From NCBI GenBank assembly GCA_029964075.1, contig CM057135.1, forward strand, positions 31,671,366-31,735,365: 64,000 nucleotides of DNA, read 5' to 3'. Positions 51,801 to 64,000 of the stretch are shown here, one piece after another. Position 1 is the stretch's first letter; every line of letters begins with the position of its first letter. A program made the position numbers and the translations under genes. This DNA comes from Patiria pectinifera (Eukaryota; Echinodermata; Asteroidea; Valvatida; Asterinidae). Below the pieces are notes generated by a model. The model did not search any database. It was not told the origin of the DNA and was given only the letters and a program-made list of their open reading frames with translations.

Positions 51801-53439
51801 ACTAAGTCAACATTGATCATTCCAAACCGACTTGACAAAGACAACATATGCAAAACTATGCAGATTTCCCTAAAACAGTTTTTATCATTTAAATTTTCAG
51901 AGCGCGAAAGGTGGCCATGAGGTGTTTTTCAAATCTTGGTCCTGTTTCTTTCCGGCTTTTGCTTCAGGGGCTTGGTTAATGATTTTAACTGGTCTCTAAA
52001 GAGAGTCAGATTACAGTATCGGCCCACAGTTATGAAGCAAACAGATTTTTTTAACTTTTGCATTAAATGGCCTTGCAATTTTCGAAGCTCGGGCCATAAA
52101 CCGAGGAAGTGGGTTCCAACTGATCCATGACATGACAAGGTTTATCACGCTAGAAAAAAATATGATGAAAAAAGAACATTTTATCTGTACACTTTTATTT
52201 GAAATTCCTAACAGCCACCAAGATTCTCGTCACTTTACAATCCAAATAGTTTTAACTGAGCCGTCATGAAGAGGAAAACGACATCCAACATTACTATATC
52301 GAAGATGTACATGTCATCTTTGTCACTAATTTAAATCTATTAGGACTGAACGGGGTTTAAATGACGGAAACATTGAGTCCGATTGGAAGGACCATTTCAA
52401 CACCGATGCCGTCGACTGCTGTATTTTACGCAAAATCATGGAATGTATCATGGAAGGTGTGGATCACGTGGGTTGCTATGTCATATGAAACTTTCAGACA
52501 ATGAACGCTGTGATTTTAATTCAAGCCCACCGTATTTTCGAACTTAAACATTGGGCCTAAAAATCTTACAGAGCAAACGTTTCAAGGTTTTCCATTGGAT
52601 TCGACAATTTGTTCGATGTCAGAGCAGCATTTGAACCAATCCGAAGTTGCAAAATAGCCAAAGATCAGGCATTCTATTGCGAGATTGATTCAAACTATGG
52701 AATTATCTGCATACTTCCCCTCCCCCCCAGTTTTCCTCCTTTTTTGGATCGTCTCGTCATCCCCCCCCCACCCATTAAATTAACAACAATATGATTTCGC
52801 GCCTCTTTTTACTTATTTATTTATTTATTTATTGTTTTGCTTGTTCGGGGGGGGGGGGAGCGCAAAACCTTTGCCGGAACTACTGAAATCGACATTCGCC
52901 GGCAGCTGCATTAAAGAGAAGTGAACGTTTGGAATTTGAATCTTGCGAAGATAAATGAATAGAAGCTTCAAATGACAATGAACAGAATGTAAGTTCCCAA
53001 ATGGAAAGCGACTCTACATTCCTGGCAAGTTTTATTTGGCATTCACTGTACTCAACAGAAGTCATTGGCGCTGTGCAGACACCTAGGTAGGAGCTACGCC
53101 AATCGTTGACACAGCCCATGAGACAACCAGGCCATCATAATAGCAAATTGAACTTGGTGCTGGTAGGTACAAAACTATACGTTTTAAAATCCAGATATCT
53201 ATTTGTAAAAATGTATTTCATGTAGCTACTTCATCACGTTTGTTTTGCCTACGGATTTAAAATTCTCCAAACTGAAATTGTTGTTATCAGGAAGGGCGGA
53301 ACAAAAATTATATGTTCACTCTTAAATTGAATAAAAAGAAGGCATGCAGGACATGATGTTGATAGCACAAAACTATAACAAGCTATAGATGACCCCCATG
53401 CAATTCATATAAACGTAACTTTTCTCCCAGATTTCCAGC
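51801..53439. other. Spacer upstream of the EAR-repeat gene
   Basis: (TTTA)n microsatellite at about 52812-52834 and a 13-14 base G-tract at about 52846. An acceptor-like tttctcccag ends 10 bases before the ATG at 53440, so the ATG may lie in a second exon with an unseen 5' UTR exon here. Confidence 0.4.
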
Positions 53440-56400
53440 ATGGCCAGAGTCTGGCCCCTTCTAGTGTGCCTTCAGTTGGCTGCAGTTTCGTGGGGTGGTG
53501 TAGCGTTATCTGCGGGACTTACTAATGTCTTGGATGACGCAGGGCGTCCATGGCAACATGCAGGTATGCAAAGTCCACATAGGAAACTTTAAGCTGCTGT
53601 ATCCAAAACTCTTTACAAGACAGACTTTTCTCATATTTCATAAATTGCAAAATGTCTTTCTGGTAATCTGTTGCGGGGTAATCATCCAATTGTATATACA
53701 TGTATTTTTGTCATGAACTTTGAAAATAATGGATGTTTGTTGTTATCAGGTCGCACCTCACTATTCCATTTATTTTCCTTGATACGTGAAAGAGTGGTTT
53801 ATTTCTTGACAGAAATGCCTGGAGCTGCCAGCATGGATGAGATTATAGCAAGAATCAAGAAATCAGCAGACCAGATTATGAAAACCAAACTACAGAGAAC
53901 AAAAGAGATTTACAAACTGGATGACACTCAAGCCCATCGCAGGTCAAAAAGAGCCATTCCTGATCAGCTCTCTAAGGCATATGAACGTAAGTAGGGAAAA
54001 TACTTGTATAAATAATGAACAGTTTGGACCAGTAATTAATATCTACACATTTTTGTATTGAAACTAGAAACATGTGTTAATCAGGAAAAATATTCTATTT
54101 ACCATCTGTCTCAAATTTTGTTGTGGTACATGTATATCCACTCACATGACCTTATCATGTTGATCTGTTGGGTTCCCAAAACAAATGTCAATGGCTCCTC
54201 GGTAATGGGTCCATTTTAATATACACTGTACATGTACATGTATTTTAAAACTGAATAATTTTCCATAATATAAAAATATGGTAGACAAGAACAATTGAGA
54301 AATACAACATGCATCTGAAATCTTTTGGAAAAGATCACCATATCCAACCAATGGGTTCAGTGGCATTTCTTATTGAAAATGATTATTAGTCTATAGAATG
54401 ATAACATTAACTGTTTTTTTATTGAATGGAGCAATAGAAAGTCAGTCAGCCTTAGATGATACTTTTCCATCAACACCCAGCAATATTTTAAACACAGACC
54501 CACAATTATGCTCCTCTAGGAACTTAAAGAACATTCCAAGATCCATGTGATAGTCTCTCCCACTGCTTACAGCAAACTCTTTTTCCTCAAACCCACTGAA
54601 CCTTCTGAGGTCAGAGGTTGAAGTTGACTGACCCTTTTCATCACAAAGGGGGAAATCCTCCCGATGCTTGCAAGAAATCTTCTTCCAGTTCATCCGTCGC
54701 AGACGGTTCCAAAACTCCTCAGCAAAACTTTTCTCCCCCTCAATGCAGATAATTCCTGGCTTTCCAGGAAGACAAAACCCTGTTACTGGCAGCTCTGTTC
54801 CCCAGTCTAAAATGTCCCTTCTTTTAAACTTGCTGTAGATATGATGACTATGAATCCAAAGTCTTGTAAATGTATCATCCTCTTTTGTTTTCTTGGACAT
54901 ATTTTTGTTAGACACACTTTTATCTTTTGATGGGGAGGGTGGTTCCACATATTTGTAAGTGTTCTCTCTGATCCATTGGATTGCTTCACCTATGCAGAGC
55001 TCCCCTCGGTCGAGACTTAAAATGTGCTCAGCAACATCATCATTCAGTCTCTTTTGCTGTTGACGGGAAAACAGTGGTGTTTCAGATCGAACCAAAACCT
55101 CAGGGACATCCTGGGGGTACCGCTCAGGAAGAAGGCAGATCACTTGCAAGTCACACTGAAAATATAATTATAAAAATACATCAATTTAAAAGAAATACAT
55201 CCACCATATAGGCTACTTTAGTTTCTAACGAGTAGCATTATGACTACTAGTAGTAGCAAACTATTGCATTGTATTATTACAGCTTAGGCTTTCCTTCTCT
55301 TTCCACAATCATGACAATGGGACTTTGCTCACCATGCTCATGGGACACGCTAGTCCGCAAATTTAGGGCTCTCAATACATCAGATAAGAAAACACAACCG
55401 GCCATCGGCCAAAGGTACAGCACAGCTACTTCCAGAACTGTAAGGTTTTTGCTAATTACAGAATACAGTTCTGGAAGTACAGCGCAGCAATACCGTTGAC
55501 CCCACTACCACTGCCAGACTACCAATCACCATGCTATTCATGCTATTTATTGATTTACCTCACAATTTAATACATTCTTAAATTTACCTGGGGTTCTTCA
55601 ATTTTAATCTTGATGGTGAAGGTAATTTGACGAAATTCCGCCAATAATCCTTCAAGTTCATCATCATCATGGTCGTCGCATTCCACGATATTGCGAGCTT
55701 CGGAAATCACACTCAGATCATCCATACAAAACTCTTCATTCGGAAACATACTCTGAAGCATCTCAACCTCTGAAAGCTGAAGCTCAATAATTTCCCTTTT
55801 CTCCATTTTTAACGCTGCAGAACTGTTTTCTTATGTTAGGCCGGCATTTGATTTCCTAGTAATCCTACGACAACTCAACAAATAAAATTGAACCATGGGC
55901 GCCGCCATCTTCTTTTACGTTGTACTCGTTCATCTATTAAATTGTTTTACTCTATATGTTCGATACTTCAAGAATAAAATTTCTCAAATTTTTCATTTAT
56001 AGAATTATTAGTGACCCGCTGAATTTATAATAATTTAGATAATATTTATCTTTTGATTTATTTTTCGTTTATTAATTATTTAAAAAAAAGATACGGTAAC
56101 TGCGGCGCGGCGCAGCGCCACCAATAGTTCATGAAAAGTATTTTGCGCACCGCTCAAAACAAATCCTGAGGCTGATGATGATGATGTGCCTAAACTCGCA
56201 AGTATAAATGGGTTCTGTTGTTCGTTGCTCTATGGTTGAATGGATTTAGTTTCTAGAATTTCTTTATTTGATTTTCAGGATTTGAAGATGAACTGATGAT
56301 GAAAACATTGATCATTCATTCATTGTCGATCATTCGTCGAAGTGCTAGCTGGAGTTACCCAGCCCTAAATTTTATCACTGGGTTGTCAATGACAACCCAA

Positions 56401-59400
56401 TGATAAAATTTAGGGCTGGGTAACTCCAGCTAACTTTTTACTAGTAATATTACTTATTAATAGGCCTAGGCCTACTAATACAGTCTGAGTAACTAACTTG
56501 GACCCAACTTTTCGCCTTTTTAACATTCGGACATGATCTGGCGATAGACCATGTCCGAATGTTAAAAAGGCGATAAGTTGGGTCCAAGTTACTCGGACTA
56601 GTATAAACTTTAAATTATAACTACATCGCTGCTGGAGACAAAACTACGTTGTAAAAGTGAGATCTTAAGAGACTCTAAAAACCGGCCTCCACAAACATGA
56701 CACTCAGGGCTCCTTTGATCAGTAGTGATTATCAAAATGCACGCACGCCTCATCTTTTGTGTTCGGTATGCTTGCAAATGGTTTCTTATATTGTTCACCG
56801 AATTAGTAGCTTTGCATTTGGAAAATTTAACATCTCAGTCTGTGAATTGATTTACAATTTGATATATTTTATCACAGCTTTCTACGAATTGCTAAGGAGT
56901 CAAGCTCTATCTGATGCCAGCGTACCAGGATGTACTGTTGTTGAGTCCTTTTCTTTGTACAACAATCAATACATCGTTGCAACCAATATCAGCTCAAAAG
57001 AACAAACAGTTCTGTACAGATACGATGTAAGTTTTATTGATCCAAAACTAATTTAGAATTCCATTTCAAAATAGGAGGCACAATAACGGTCTGACTTGCC
57101 AAATTGTAATCATTATCATCTTTGTAAGTGTGATCTGATGATGCTATTTAAGTTTCACGTAAGCTTTTGTCACTTAAATGCCTAACCATTTACTGCTACT
57201 CCAACATGTAGTGCTCAAATTTTCTTACAACAGGCATGGAAACATAAGAATCATGTAAACTATCATGTTTTCAAATTTAAATATTCAGAATGGAACGTCA
57301 ACTGTCCTGCAAGTTTTGGAGACTGCTGATGTTAAAGATTTGGCAGTATTTCAAGTGGAGGAGCAAACCATCTTGATCGTCATGGAAAGCAACTCTGGTA
57401 AAAAAACCCGAATTTTCAAACTTTCCTTTTTTTTTATACAAGGGTGCATTATATCTTCTGTTTAGTTTTATATTGTGTGGATTAAACACAGTAAATAAAT
57501 TGTAAGCAAGCAGCAATAACTACAAAGTTGAACTACAACCAGATATTTTGTCCTCTTTTTATAGAAACCGTCGGCCTTCCAACAGGCACTGTCGTGTATG
57601 AGTTTGATAACACAACCCAGAGCTTTCAGTATGTTCAAAGAATTCTAACTGACAATCCAAGGAGAGTGGAAGTCTTCTCACATAATGGTGTCCACTATGT
57701 GATCTTCACTGGTGCTTCTGTGGAAAGTTTTGGTGTTGGAATTCAACGCAGGGTGTCTTCTATACATAGATGGAAAGGTATGTGTTTTCAGGGGAGAGTT
57801 GGTCATTCTTAAAGTAAATTACCTTTTTTTATTTGAGACATCTATCTTCACACATTTTTATCACCGATATATGGAGGAAGAAATTGACAGTCTCGTGTTT
57901 GTTTTGATTCTGCAGGAGGCCATTTGGATAAGATTTCGACATTGATTACTGGTGATGCAGTTGATGTACATCCATTCAATATTCACAACCAAGCATTTCT
58001 GGGGCTGGCCAATCGTACCGATTCTCACATCCTGATCTTCAGTCCACATCTTGAGGCCTTCAGTAGATATCAGGTATTGATTGATTAGTTGATTAATGTT
58101 GGTGATTGGTTGTAATGACATACGGACTATTATGTGTTTGTTTGCAAGTTGTTGTAGTGAATAAAGTCCTCCCAACCCCAGCCCAGATGGCTGGCCTGAC
58201 ATGTTACTGTACTTCTTCCCCTACTTTCAGTCGTAAAGAAGACATTCAAACTGTTATTTTTTTTCTGTTCTTATCCGACCCCTTGTGTAATAGGATATTG
58301 ATATCACACATGCCATAACCTGGGAGTATTTCAATCTTGGCGATGGGCCAGACCAGGACCATTTCTTGGCTGTCGCAAGTGATAAAGGTTAGTAGCTTCC
58401 ATACAAAAAGCTTTTCTATCATGTTGGTAGATGAAGTTTAATTTAAAGAGCGACATACAGTAGTCTTTCCCTCTTAGGAGGAAACATCACCAATTCCTGT
58501 GGAGAAGCTAGAGTATTTTATGAAATGTTTGAAATCCCAATTCACATAATACTTGGTAATAGAAACCAAGTTGATCACCAGTAAAATATGAGAAAAGAAC
58601 AACTGTCTTAAGCTCACATAGCAGTGTTAAAAACGTTTGATGCAAATAAAACTAACTAATAGAAAACACAAACTAATGCAATGTTTCATGGACTTTATAC
58701 CTTGTCAGGTGGGCCCAGTCAGTCAGTCATCTACAAATATCATCGCAATGAGTTCGTTCCCTTCCAAAGTATTTCAACCAGTGGAGCCAGGCTGTGGCAT
58801 GCCGTCAAGAATTCAGACGGGACCTTGAGAGTTCTTGCACTGTCTAGTGATGACGGCATAACGTTCTATGAGTACAGTGGCTGGCGATTTGAGCTGTCGA
58901 CTGTACTGATTGCCCAACCTGGAGACCTGCAGGCTAAGAGTATGACATCATTCATCAGGAATAGTCAGGTGGTTCTTGTCATTGCGGATAATTCAACATT
59001 GAATGACAACGTGTATGAATTGACATTTGGTGCAAACCATGCTGTGCAGCAGTTACATAGAGAGGCGTCATTATCATGTATTCGTTTGAGAGCTAAGATT
59101 GCAAGGTAAGTTAAGTCATCACTGGCTTCAGTGGTGTGTTTTGAGACAGAGAGCCAGTATCTGTATTTTCATTAGAATTCCATTTGACATTCATGTTTGG
59201 ATGCCTTTTTTGTTCCCTTCATGTACATTTCTTGTGACCAAATATTCACTGGACATTACATGTGTTGTTTTTTTTTGTGAAACGAAATTGACGAATGCAT
59301 GAGCATAACAGCCTAATATGCCTCTTTATTAGTTACTGCAAGTGAAGTGTGTGTCTTTTCTTCCAACACAGTTTAGAGAGCAGACTGAACGCTACACAGA

Positions 59401-62400
59401 CGGCTGCGGATAATCTAGTATATATCAACTCTTCAGAAGTTCAGATTATTACGGGCAATAAGACATTCCAAGGGAACATCTCCATGGATGCTGTTGTTGC
59501 AAACGAAAGTAAGTACTGTCAGATGAAAGATTCATTGTGATGTGAGCAAATCATAATCTTTCCAAAGGTCATATTAAAAATTTCTATTCATCGAGGCATT
59601 TTGATTTTTGCTTGCAAAGAAAGGGAACACACCTTCAGAAGGTTTTTAGCCCCCCCCCTAAAAAAGATAGATTCCTCAACAAACAGTAAGTAGAACAGAG
59701 TTTAATAAGAAATGTGTTTTTCTTTTTTTTTCCACAGCTCATGCTGCAAATGGTATGATTCTTGACGCCAAAGAAAAGGTTGAATTCTCGGAGGTGAAGT
59801 CAAACCAGACACAGAGTTTCTCGGACCTGATCAGCATAGAAACACAGTTGAATGGAGCCATGAACAAAACAGGTCCTCAGCAAACAGTCACAGGTATGTA
59901 ATCCATTACAACATGTGTGAAAGACCTGCAAACACAAAGAACTCAACAAAACAGTATATGCATCTTGAATGGCAGTACATGACATTTGAAAAGGAGGCCA
60001 TTTTATGAATCTCAAAAGACTAACAAAATGACCCTGATTCTAAAATTAAGATCATGCAATGAAGTGAGAGGCTTTCAAAGTGTTTCCTATAAATATCGCA
60101 GCAGTGTAATGTCACACAAAGAAAATTTTGTGAAAATGTCAATTACCGAGTATCTCATTAATGTTAAACTCCTGTATTGGAATTGTGTAGAACAAAGCTT
60201 TCTCAATGCAATATATTAACATATTTGAGGTAATTTGAAGTTTTGGACTTGTTTCATTCAGGTCAGAAAACCTTCAGCAAATTGACGACTCCAGTAATGG
60301 ATGCCAACACTGTCAACGTAGGAAGTGATGTCATCAATGGAAATGTGAACTTGACAGAGTTAGTCACAAACACATGGCATAAGGACAAAACTCAGGTGAG
60401 TGACAATGACGTTATAGTACCAGTGAAGGGACTTGCTTACTGTTGACGACTGAAGGTGACTGGGGTTTATTAACAGTAGCCAAGCCACTGTCATTCATAA
60501 CATCATTAGCAAAACTGTTTGAAAATGACCAAAATCAATCATTTTTGTGTGGATTTCGGAATCAACATACGCAAAACAAAGTGAGATTTATACTTAGGAG
60601 AGTAAAGTGCGATACAGGCTTATCTGGATTCCTGATAATTATGTTCTAGACATCAAAACGAAGGGTGGGAACAGGTGTAAAAGTGTTTTCCTCTGCATCA
60701 CCATTTTAGAATAAATTCACAACAGGTGTTTTCATTGATTGGAATGTTTTAATTTTCACTTGTGAGAGGACTGTGTGCCCGGAAGCCATTAGTAACTTGG
60801 CATCCTAGCATGGCATGCACCGTGATACTATGGTTAATGGCTGTGCCTTTGCTTCCTCTTCAGGTTATTGACATCGGGTTTAGTGTCTCTGGAAATGTGA
60901 CAGTGCAAGGAGGTCTGACAGTATCAGAATTGCTGGATGGCATTAATACATCCACCATCGTTACATTGTCAGGCAATCACACTATAGAGGGCAGCAAAAC
61001 ATTTGATGCCTCAGTCCAAGTTAAAGGTGAGTGTATGCTTGTATAATCTTTCTAATCATTGCTAAATGTTCTGCCTTGTTAATGTTGAGCAGGTTTAAAA
61101 TACATGAGTTTAACTCTGATCTGTCTCAAAAGCAGACAAGGCTAAGAGCGCAAGGCCCAATAAATGTCTCTGAAGACCCTCAGCTTGTCAGGAAGAAAAC
61201 ACCAAACATTGACGCATTCAAACATTTTTGAGGTAAAACAAGGAAAACAGATGTATGGGAAATTACAAGGGTTGACAATACTTATGCCTTAAATGAAACT
61301 TTGCTTTACTTTTAGGAAACCTTAATGTATCACAAAACATTGATGGAGTCAATGTGACTGACAGCACCCTTCTTCTAACATACGGGAACCAGACTATTCA
61401 GAATCATTTGAATGTAAGTGGAGTTGTGACCTTCATCAACAATGTGGAAGTGGATGGACTAGTGGATGGGTGTGATTTGTCAACTATCAACCAAGACGCT
61501 GTGTTGACATCCGGTGACTTTAATGTCACAGGTACGTACTGTCCAAGCTATTGATTGCCCCACCAAGGAATGGTGTTAGTATTTTGACATCACTGGGTTA
61601 GGGAGCACCAGCGTTATATAGACTCTGTGCACAAGTATCCCTCAATGGTTGCAAAGAGAAAGTTGGGAGGGACCATGGGAGGGACATCCGATGGCATTGC
61701 CGACAAAGCCTGATGCTCATATAGAGGCTACAGGTTTATACACCTTCAGATTTGTAGTGTATGCACCATACGTCTGCAGACCAGTGTGCACGCATGGTAT
61801 TAAAACTTCCCTCAGCTTGAGCTGTTTTGAGTAAAACAAGGATCACAGAAACTTCTTTTTCTGTTTAGGTATTGAAATTTGAAGCAGGTGGGGGTATCCC
61901 CTGTGGCCCCCTTCATATGGAATGTCAATGACTTAAATGTACTCAAGAAATGACTCAAGGAGACCTCACCGTTTCTGCTTGATATAGATTCAGTATTGAC
62001 ATTCCCATGTCCTGTATTCTACTTTATTCATTTACAAGATATAACTTGACAGGGTGCCACATTGCAGTTATCAACACATTAAAATCTGATATTTTTGCTG
62101 TAATAGGAAACAAAACTTTCACCGGTAACCTGACTCCAGAGTTGGGCATTACCATGGGTACAGGACGAACCATAGATGGTGTCAGTATCCTGCAACTTGA
62201 TCAAACAGTGTTGAAGACAACAGGGAACCAGCAACTAACAGGTATATAAACATCTCTAGTGGAGCTGAAATGAAGGTTAAATTTTACACAAAACTTTGCA
62301 TTTACTTACTTATGAACATCATAGGCATGCTTGAGTGTAATCCAAACTTCAGCTCCTGCTAACCAGCGTAGATGTCTGAGTTGGAAACAAACGTGAATGT

Positions 62401-64000
62401 ACATGTGTATGTTCATTTCTGCAAGGGCCCCATCCATATCTCAAAAGCATCGACCAAATTGTTGTCCTGCAAACATTTCTTTTGCAAAGATACATACCTG
62501 TGAGAAATTTCAAAATTCACCCCATTTTTTGTCTCTTCCATTTGCAGGAGATTACAATTTCACCCAGACTGTGGACATTTATGGCAATCTTAGCGTGGAT
62601 GGACTTGTGGATGGCTTGACTATTCCTGATGACATCTTGTTGGAAAATTCACCAACGCAGGCAGTTTTAGCTGAGAATTGGACACTTCATGACATTACTG
62701 TAGAAAACATGACTGTGGAAACAAGCATCGATGGTATAACGAGAACAGGTACATATACCACCCTTATCAAGGGATTGTCAGTTCAATACATGAGTGCAAG
62801 TTTTCCATTTGTCAGTTCCAGTTGTAGAGTCGACAGTAATTTGCTGCTTTTCCCTAGACGGTAGATCGTTCTCATGATGATTGCTTGAAGTACAGTAAAC
62901 ACAGTGAGGGGTCATGATTTCAAAAAATAATTGTAAGAAATTGTAGACTTTCAGTTTGATACGTCGTCAATTTTTTTATTTGACAGCTGGTGGCTTTGGT
63001 TTGGATGTGATGCTTGTAAATGGTGGAGGGCAGACATTAGAGGGCGCTATATCATTTGCAGGGGGCATGCGACTGAATTGGACGTCTCAGGTCACTGGGC
63101 TAGTTGATGGTGTGGACATTCCATCAATGGTGGCTGATGCTGTGTATAAGAGCGGCAATCAACAAATTACAGGTAACGTTCACCACACTCTAGTGCAACT
63201 CTGCGCCTGGACTTGTGTGCCTCTGTCTGCATGTCAACCACTCTGTAACTAATCTGACCTTTTATGTTTTCTCATTATAGGAAAGAAGACGTTTGCTTCA
63301 GATTTGAATTTCCAGCAGGATCTACTGGTTGACGAATTGATAAATGGCATCAACATCACTGAATACGAGTCCAATGCATTGAAACTCTTCGATGATGATG
63401 ACACAATTGTTTTTAACGGGGATGTTGAACTCAATGCTTCAGAAACAAAGGTAATGTTGCTGCTGATTTCAATTTAATTTTTAAGAAACTTCGTTAGTGA
63501 TAAATGCTGACAGTTAGTTAACGTCTCTCAAGTGGTTTTTGTGAACTTAAGGTAAAACTGAAAGGTTGCATTGAAATATTTCAGTTTAAGCAAAGAAAAT
63601 TGATAGGATTTGAACATGATGAGACCTCTGACACCCTCTGTCCTACTTGTGGCTGTGTTGATTCCAGCTTGGATAAATATACTTTGTTCAACAGCTTTTT
63701 TTAGTTCATGTATTTTCTACTGTTTTTTGGGCTTGTAATCCTTGCAGTGTACTTGTCTTGAAAAATTTGTTAATTTGTTCTTCATATTTTCATGTTTATT
63801 CAACCAGATGGCTGGCCCACTGATAACTGCTGGCAATCATTCATTTCACTACGAGAGAAGTCTTCAAGATCTTGTCATTCAAGGCCGACAGGACATTATC
63901 TATGGCTTGAAAACCTTCCCTCAGGTTACATCAAATCAAGATGTAGAAGCAACACTAGTCAATGGCATTAACATCATGTATTACTACAGTGATTCTATTC
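53440..64000 (+). CDS. Secreted EAR/EPTP-propeller protein with tandem beta-repeats (3' end outside window)
   Basis: Eighteen in-frame exons: 53440-53563, 53813-53986, 56878-57026, 57289-57397, 57565-57777, 57916-58073, 58294-58387, 58709-59105, 59372-59508, 59738-59893, 60262-60395, 60864-61026, 61316-61531, 62107-62241, 62548-62748, 62987-63172, 63281-63450 and 63808 onward (about 1036 residues so far). Residues 1-25 are a signal peptide (MARVWPLLVCLQLAAVSWGG). RRSKR at 84-88 is a furin-like site ending a helical propeptide. Residues about 110-470 are EAR/EPTP propeller repeats (SVIYKYHRNEFVPFQSISTS; FLGLANRTDSHILIF). From about 485 come tandem units of the pattern GN-TF-G...V-GLVDG-DI...L-SGNQ--TG, mostly one unit per phase-1 exon. 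More than a dozen N-glycosylation sequons (NKT, NVT, NQT, NWT) support secretion. EAR domains are known from LGI, TSPEAR and ADGRV1 proteins; the C-terminal repeats are unfamiliar. The splice model is consistent throughout. Confidence 0.82.
54442..55806 (-). CDS. RWDD2: RWD domain-containing protein 2 (RWDD2A/B orthologue)
   Basis: Two coding exons, 55588-55806 and 54442-55155, joined in phase 0 (CCCCAG|gtaaat ... ttttcag|TGTGAC) give 310 residues, close to human RWDD2A/B (about 290-320). Residues 5-130 are an RWD domain (EVEMLQSMFPNEE; LLPERYPQDVPEVLV; QQQKRLNDDVAEHI; GELCIGEAIQWIREN). Residues about 155-300 are the DUF1115 domain (RLWIHSHHIYSKFKRRDIL, GFCLPGKPGIICIEG, EEFWNRLRRMNWKKISCKH, DYHMDLGMFFKFLEEH). 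RWD domains usually mediate protein contacts; the cellular role of RWDD2 is not established. The gene is complete and lies antisense within intron 2 of the EAR-repeat gene. The start is the first ATG of the conserved N-terminus. Confidence 0.93.
55416..55492. ncRNA. Hairpin in RWDD2 intron (pre-miRNA-sized, uncertain)
   Basis: TACTTCCAGAACTGTA (55427-55442) and its exact complement TACAGTTCTGGAAGTA (55465-55480) flank a loop of about 22 bases. Weaker pairing extends outward to GGTA/TACC. The size and 16-bp stem fit a pre-miRNA, but a small foldback repeat would look the same. Confidence 0.25.
56346..56432. mobile_element. Palindromic mini-element of the TAGCTGGAGTTA family
   Basis: An 87-bp almost perfect palindrome with the same ends and arm sequence as the 11999-12817 element (TAGCTGGAGTTACCCAGCCC...). 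No 9-bp flanking duplication. It lies in intron 2 of the EAR-repeat gene. Confidence 0.75.
56486..56599. mobile_element. Palindromic element (GAGTAACTTGGACCCAACTT arms)
   Basis: Arms of about 55 bp meet near CTGGCGATAGACC. A single arm occurs at 13875-13926. Non-coding, within intron 2 of the EAR-repeat gene and just upstream of its exon 3. Confidence 0.75.

Follow-up and report, generated by a model that had tools for sequence, protein, structure and literature searches.

LGI1, of the LGI1–4 family, is a secreted protein with an EAR propeller; it is composed of a leucine-rich repeat (LRR) domain and a single EPTP domain, with no repeat array of the kind described below, and it assembles with ADAM22 at 2:2 and 3:3 stoichiometry (PMC12226019). 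EAR proteins, therefore, do bind protein partners. The receptor-binding protein (BppL) of phage TP901-1 has a β-prism neck (residues 40–63), which follows a helix bundle and consists of three interlaced chains with a six-residue motif (PMC3893620). Here, we describe a gene in a 64,000-nucleotide stretch of the sea star Patiria pectinifera (contig CM057135.1, positions 31,671,366 to 31,735,365; hereafter the window), the product of which carries EAR/EPTP repeats followed by an array of 43-residue repeats with a profile-level match to this phage neck. TSPEAR also has EAR/EPTP repeats, and a bird TSPEAR fragment (P0007; such numbers denote proteins from our searches) was among the search matches. 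ADGRV1 carries EAR/EPTP repeats as well, and TSPEAR and ADGRV1 have laminin-G or seven-transmembrane (7TM) parts where the array stands here.

Gene model and EAR regions

The joined frame of the window gene was open over 1036 residues, and all 17 introns had GT/AG borders. The protein of Patiria miniata LOC119727416 (P0009, 2139 aa), which was obtained in a homolog search where a substitute took the place of the absent second half of the query, aligned without gaps across the 1036 residues (1010/1036 identical), and the next-closest matches came from Acanthaster (LOC110980413, 75%) and Asterias amurensis (57%). Since the match to P0009 was gapless and other sea stars have counterparts, an assembly artefact was rejected. 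Exons 8 and 9, the joining of which the first-pass annotation of this DNA had doubted, are likewise joined in P0009. The signal peptide and furin-like boundary proposed there agree with a hydrophobic N-terminus and an RSKR motif at residues 85–88; among the 36 family members of at least 1800 aa, 25 carry an R-x-[KR]-R site within their first 160 residues.

EPTP repeats, also claimed at first pass, were detected by Pfam in the window protein at E 1e-17 (64.3 bits, cut-off 21) and in its N-region scanned alone at E 6.1e-21 (74.7 bits). P0009 has a second EPTP region after its array (E 6.3e-12, 45.8 bits). In a PDB search, the family profile of both the N- and C-regions matched LGI1, and the window N-terminal EAR region as a single sequence matched nothing at E 0.1; the C-terminal domain of a paralogue was predicted to have an LGI1-like fold. 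As the first-pass annotation had stated of the usual partners of EAR domains, no LRR, laminin-G or 7TM family was among the Pfam matches of the window protein or P0009, and a plain LGI or TSPEAR ortholog was rejected because the LRR and laminin-G parts are missing. The peak 19-residue hydropathy beyond residue 30 was 1.53 in P0009; it exceeded 1.6 in 7 of 36 members, some of which may have a membrane anchor.

The repeat array

A hidden Markov model (HMM) of the repeat was grown from the copies in family member P0002 across 42 family proteins, and it gave the 43-residue consensus VNGVDLSELASDAVLLDGDQTITGNKTFTGDVTVEGDLTVTGL. With this model, which had included copies from the orthologue P0009, 12 repeats of at least 5 bits were found in the window, and 300 shuffles yielded a mean of 0.003 per shuffle and a maximum of 1. 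The first HMM, built on seven P0002 copies only, found nine (at least 3 bits). The unit length of 45–70 residues given at first pass was replaced by a period of ca. 43. In P0009, the array comprises 27 repeats by a rule that fills double gaps. Four of the nine array introns are in phase 1 at the same repeat position, the Gly codon of I-T-G (register 24–25), and this shared position fits exon duplication.

Across 847 copies, positions 22, 28, 34 and 40 were hydrophobic in 94–100%, and Gly was common at 24, 36 and 42 and, to a lesser degree, at 30, giving a six-residue period. N-glycosylation sequons had been noted in the repeats at first pass, and the P0009 array indeed holds 50 as against 18.7 ± 3.7 in 1000 shuffles (maximum 31). 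An excess was also seen in arrays of sea stars, cnidarians and a hemichordate. It is not general across the family: sequons were depleted in the arrays of four sea urchins (P0013, P0029, P0031 and P0034; from low to high, 1, 5, 6 and 6 vs 12.9–15.6 in shuffles), the shrimp P0039 array had 5 vs 13.9, and other arthropods showed no clear excess.

Likeness of the repeats to phage necks

The first-pass annotation had compared the repeats to β-prism phage fibres, and profile searches, which it had suggested, supported this. Pfam BppL_N scored 43.4 bits on the window protein (cut-off 25.8, E 2.2e-11), 33.3 bits for P0009 and 73.2 bits for a member from amphioxus, and it was above cut-off in 6 of the 12 family proteins scanned (the window protein, P0001, P0002, P0009, P0018 and P0024). 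Single repeat pieces matched BppL_N in 6 of 10 cases, every one under the cut-off. When a 26-repeat profile was searched against PDB, the TP901-1 and Tuc2009 receptor-binding proteins ranked first (E 9.4e-8 to 4.8e-7), the match on the TP901-1 protein spanning its residues 34–61; a further protein named orf22 stood in row 10 (E 8e-4). Rows 11–18 (E 0.02–2.9), among them a long tail fibre subunit beside designed and unrelated proteins, were set aside as chance or too weak. When the repeats were searched against PDB as a single sequence, six weak rows resulted, with Tuc2009 at E 0.14; the best row, an unrelated protein at E 0.0014, was not returned by the repeat profile and was rejected.

Searched with the repeat consensus, phage records gave 79 matches at E 1, with 2e-4 the best among the 30 listed. 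Four of these phage proteins scored 164, 47, 33 and 30 bits with the animal HMM, and 1000 shuffles (720 of which were reported by the program) at most 8.8 bits. In PHROGs, phrog_10512 matched the window array (E 2.1e-6) and P0024 (E 5.2e-5), the tail protein phrog_7911 matched P0018 (E 8.6e-11), and P0009 and P0015 had nothing at E 0.01. An NCBIfam scan of four proteins gave a single chance match, under the cut-off.

Such a likeness may be convergent, a simple pattern of Gly, Val/Ile/Phe and polar residues in strands having arisen independently, and a trimeric stalk would still be compatible with this origin. The motif is short, with most viral matches covering ca. 20 residues, and the full-length paralogue P0024 had no tblastn match in 50,697 phage records. 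Counting against convergence, the shared motif is specific (Q-T-I-x-G-x-K-T-F plus flanks), the profile matches have E 2.2e-11 in Pfam and ca. 1e-7 in PDB, and composition shuffles fall short of the likeness. Convergence is thus a serious possibility, at somewhat less than even odds.

Distribution, repeat number and register

Searches with the window protein gave 8 and 39 proteins; a search with an insect alignment gave two, one being its own first row and the other a fly protein that does not bear the name Nasrat, Polehole or Closca. The named members come from Hydra, Rhopilema, sea stars, a brittle star, sea urchins, Saccoglossus, Branchiostoma and Priapulus, and among arthropods from spiders, a mite, Tachypleus, decapods, a damselfly, beetles and a fly. 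With ca. 8000 candidates scored per search, the TSPEAR fragment P0007 was the only named vertebrate protein among the matches, which is weak evidence that the family may be absent from vertebrates.

By the double-gap-filling rule, 27 repeats were counted in 19 of the 35 proteins above 1850 aa (P0007 and P0008 were excluded as non-array proteins); the other counts were 20 (1), 24 (2), 25 (2), 26 (7), 28 (2), 32 (1) and 38 (1), and in several 26-repeat proteins the missing unit looks, by eye, like the first repeat. The repeat number bears on whether the protein is a diffusible signalling ligand akin to LGI1 or TSPEAR, in which the repeats would be a passive linker. An EAR region at each end, the place of LGI1 as nearest solved relative and the source name tspear on two spider relatives agree with such a ligand. 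An array that runs for ca. 1,190 residues and keeps its repeat number over many phyla exceeds the needs of a linker, and the lack of LRR and laminin-G hits points the same way, so that we consider the ligand improbable.

In a midpoint-rooted FastTree of 42 sequences (P0003, P0007 and P0008 excluded), clade A held the window gene, other echinoderms, Priapulus, insects, a shrimp, four spiders and Tachypleus, although its status as a single clade depends on the root. Clade B held two sea stars, a brittle star, amphioxus, other decapods, a mite and one spider, and clade C held Patiria, a brittle star, urchins, Saccoglossus and amphioxus, with the cnidarians beside it (support 0.87). Each of the three clades includes one Amphiura protein.

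Register was compared in 11 protein pairs, and in some of these a missed repeat displaced the index. The spacing correlation of Rhopilema was 0.88 with Branchiostoma, 0.83 with Saccoglossus and 0.67 with the Patiria paralogue (0/2000 permutations each); that of Hydra was 0.65 with Saccoglossus and 0.58 with the Patiria paralogue (1/2000 each); and that of the Patiria paralogue was 0.64 with Saccoglossus (1/2000) and 0.56 with Trichonephila (7/2000). In a repeat-by-repeat sequence test, three of the 11 pairs beat all 500 permutations, and five had values of 2–12 of 500.

Some relatives depart from the common plan. P0029 (Strongylocentrotus) has a 295-residue step within its array, and P0029, P0014, P0012 and P0025 have extra domains by precomputed Pfam accessions, NIDO among them; the others are, as we assume from their accessions, galactose-binding lectin, TSP1 and discoidin. 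The metagenome protein P0008, perhaps of microbial origin, carries EAR repeats in nine EPTP stretches (8e-94), and its matches to phage proteins are very weak (E about 0.1).

Other features of the window

The features of the window are listed in Table 1. None of 175 tblastn hits of the family fell outside 53000–64000, and tandem copies of the gene within the window were accordingly rejected. A transfer RNA and Rfam scan of the 64-kb window gave no match. The nested gene in intron 2, which was joined by eye from two pieces, is presumably of the RWDD2 kind, and the frame with an RVT_1 match is probably a retrotransposon piece.

Table 1 Features of the window, with residues numbered in the window protein.
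Feature	Position	Strand	Evidence or score
Gene, counterpart of P. miniata LOC119727416	53440..64000	+	18 exons, continues past window end
Signal peptide (putative), ca. residues 1–19	53440..53496	+	hydrophobicity only
Propeptide with RSKR at its end, exons 1–2	53497..53952	+	sequence motif
N-terminal EAR/EPTP region, exons 3–8	56880..59043	+	Pfam and family profile
Putative helix between EAR region and repeats	59050..59423	+	coiled-coil-like by eye
Repeat, residues 486–512	59409..59489	+	20.6 bits
Repeat, residues 559–578, intron inside	59857..60284	+	13.7 bits
Repeat, residues 595–637, intron inside	60333..60929	+	23.5 bits
Repeat, residues 640–675, intron inside	60936..61332	+	32.0 bits
Repeat, residues 678–718	61339..61461	+	24.4 bits
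Repeat, residues 719–751, intron inside	61462..62135	+	38.2 bits
Repeat, residues 764–806, intron inside	62172..62606	+	38.2 bits
Weak repeat, residues 807–844	62607..62720	+	7.8 bits
Weak repeat, residues 860–892	63004..63102	+	6.4 bits
Repeat, residues 893–934, intron inside; best BppL_N stretch 901–924	63103..63336	+	54.0 bits
Repeat, residues 936–967	63340..63435	+	10.8 bits
Weak repeat, residues 993–1019	63868..63948	+	5.3 bits
Nested gene in intron 2, RWD and Prp3_C domains	54442..55830	−	Pfam 6.7e-15, 2.2e-14
Hairpin in intron 2, like a miniature inverted-repeat transposable element	56346..56432		arms 43 nt, 98% complementary
Hairpin in intron 2, of the same likeness	56494..56591		arms 46 nt, 96% complementary
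Open frame of 371 residues	21703..22818	−	RVT_1 match 5.2e-14

Discussion

The best explanation of the gene model, domain order, repeat statistics, neck match and wide conservation observed here is, with a probability of about 0.6, a secreted and probably furin-processed strut, namely a trimeric repeat rod capped by propellers in an extracellular matrix or egg coat. The protein would be secreted and its propeptide cleaved by furin, and an EAR/LGI-type β-propeller would sit at either end of a 27-repeat rod. Each repeat would contain a strand segment like the neck of the phage receptor-binding protein, where three chains interlace as a triangular β-prism, and a parallel, in-register packing of three chains is therefore likely. 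From this likeness we infer that the repeats oligomerise. Three parallel, in-register chains would form a stiff, glycan-bearing rod with three propellers per end, ca. 50 nm long or more if each of the 27 units adds at least four strand spacings, and the propellers may tether matrix or receptor partners at a fixed distance. The coat of eggs or embryos is the likeliest site, another extracellular matrix being the alternative.

Several observations weigh against this strut. The phage match covers only ca. 28 of the 43 repeat residues, and most of 15 viral contig loci, which have few repeat copies each (1–4), were covered over only ca. 20 residues (positions 14–34). BppL_N was below cut-off in P0003, P0004 and P0015 and did not match P0005, P0006 and P0045. 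Against a shared register in particular, the spacing correlation was weak between P0009 and Rhopilema (0.27, 251/2000) and between P0009 and its paralogue (0.41, 76/2000), and Rhopilema aligned with Tachypleus and with Trichonephila at other offsets and without correlation (−0.04 and 0.13); the remaining three of the 11 pairs gave 55, 157 and 245 of 500 in the repeat-by-repeat test. The main text of the Patiria skeletal proteome paper names neither EPTP nor EAR, and expression records of the window gene were not found. Monomer models were not confident in the array, the P0002 model having a predicted local distance difference test (pLDDT) score of 41, although low monomer pLDDT may also reflect a thin alignment. 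Foldseek with the repeat-only P0002 model found nothing at E 0.001, which says little at pLDDT 41, and the top insignificant rows (best 0.046) were mostly single-chain bacterial β-helix or solenoid proteins.

These last rows would agree with the repeats being a monomeric β-solenoid, with a few coils per 43-residue unit, in a single-chain, two-headed linker. The P0002 monomer model also has short strands broken by three-residue gaps, and one repeat fragment weakly matched PF18836 B_solenoid_ydck (E 0.0023), but at 18.2 bits vs a cut-off of 30. Since the strongest profile matches are interlaced trimeric necks and the monomer models are unconfident in the array, we regard the solenoid as unlikely.

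With regard to the egg coat, insect Nasrat, Polehole and Closca may be comparable by description: they are eggshell proteins, two of them termed related genes, and are described as a heterotrimer in Drosophila. Fly databases relate their genes to TSPEAR. A wider scenario, which we consider speculative and doubtful, is that a phage or virus fibre repeat was acquired before the cnidarian–bilaterian split and fixed at 27 units, that paralogues A, B and C form an in-register heterotrimer, and that Nasrat/Polehole/Closca are its arthropod version. Within it, the count of 27 would be shared because three different chains must lie side by side. If true, the family would be a possible molecular basis of the insect eggshell complex, for which no structural description was found in the literature consulted.

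In Drosophila, each of the trio is needed for the eggshell incorporation of the others (PMC6303783) and the three form a heterotrimeric complex, and knockdown of each spoils the eggs of Aedes (PMC10576393); Nasrat and Polehole are termed related genes (PMC3639227). Counting the other way, nasrat and polehole were reportedly not detected in a horseshoe crab transcriptome (PMC4711587) and are both missing from the pea aphid (PMC3639227), and nasrat is reported to be untranscribed in the females of one butterfly (PMC3654919); unlike these genes in the horseshoe crab, the EAR-repeat family has a member in Tachypleus. In white shrimp, ovary bias is shown by an EAR-annotated transcript (11,553; table of the real-time PCR section) and by two polehole-like transcripts (744 and 1018) (PMC4659196). 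In tiger shrimp, a nasrat-named transcript is among the highest in the female gonad (PMC6131155), and a polehole-named one occurs in the ovary (PMC7040003). The red coral biomineral proteome lists an EAR-annotated protein (PMC7853314), and other matrices are therefore possible. The shrimp and coral proteins, identified by BLAST labels only, may be other EAR proteins, which also weakens their bearing on the strut.

The architecture had been called unfamiliar at first pass. This holds for the literature searched and not for databases, as EPTP and BppL_N occur together on 17 of 39 search proteins in precomputed Pfam lists. In open-licence PubMed Central, EPTP was not reported together with Nasrat; EAR/EPTP was not paired with BppL, lower baseplate protein, β-prism or triple-stranded β-helix among the matches listed, nor were the accession numbers and names of both sides; and the papers matched did not mention the family locus names. 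The second propeller, the repeat number and the wide family were beyond the reach of the first-pass annotation.

Among known systems, LGI1 resembles the family in its profile-matched EAR regions, and BppL of TP901-1 and Tuc2009 resembles it in a neck that matches the repeat over ca. 28 residues and in a helix before the prism, as a putative helix precedes the array here. BppL differs in having one 24-residue neck and a receptor-binding head (PMC3893620) in place of 27 units and two propellers; instead of a phage-type C-terminal receptor-binding head in a virion, the window holds a spliced animal gene with EAR regions. Streptomyces phage Dryad gp33, annotated as a hypothetical protein, has 11 copies of the core motif, but with irregular spacing (45–103). 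Polinton-like viruses of eukaryotes have BppL_N, which forms trimers in phage baseplates, in their fibre proteins (PMC12220804), and a eukaryotic virus is therefore a possible source; these fibres differ in being viral and in having a chaperone-of-endosialidase domain fused or adjoining (PMC12220804). The family combines an EAR propeller of LGI type with a fibre neck of phage type, two parts familiar from very different contexts, in an old animal protein that is labelled uncharacterised in most sources, and it leads to a specific structural hypothesis, that of a trimeric, fixed-length ruler.

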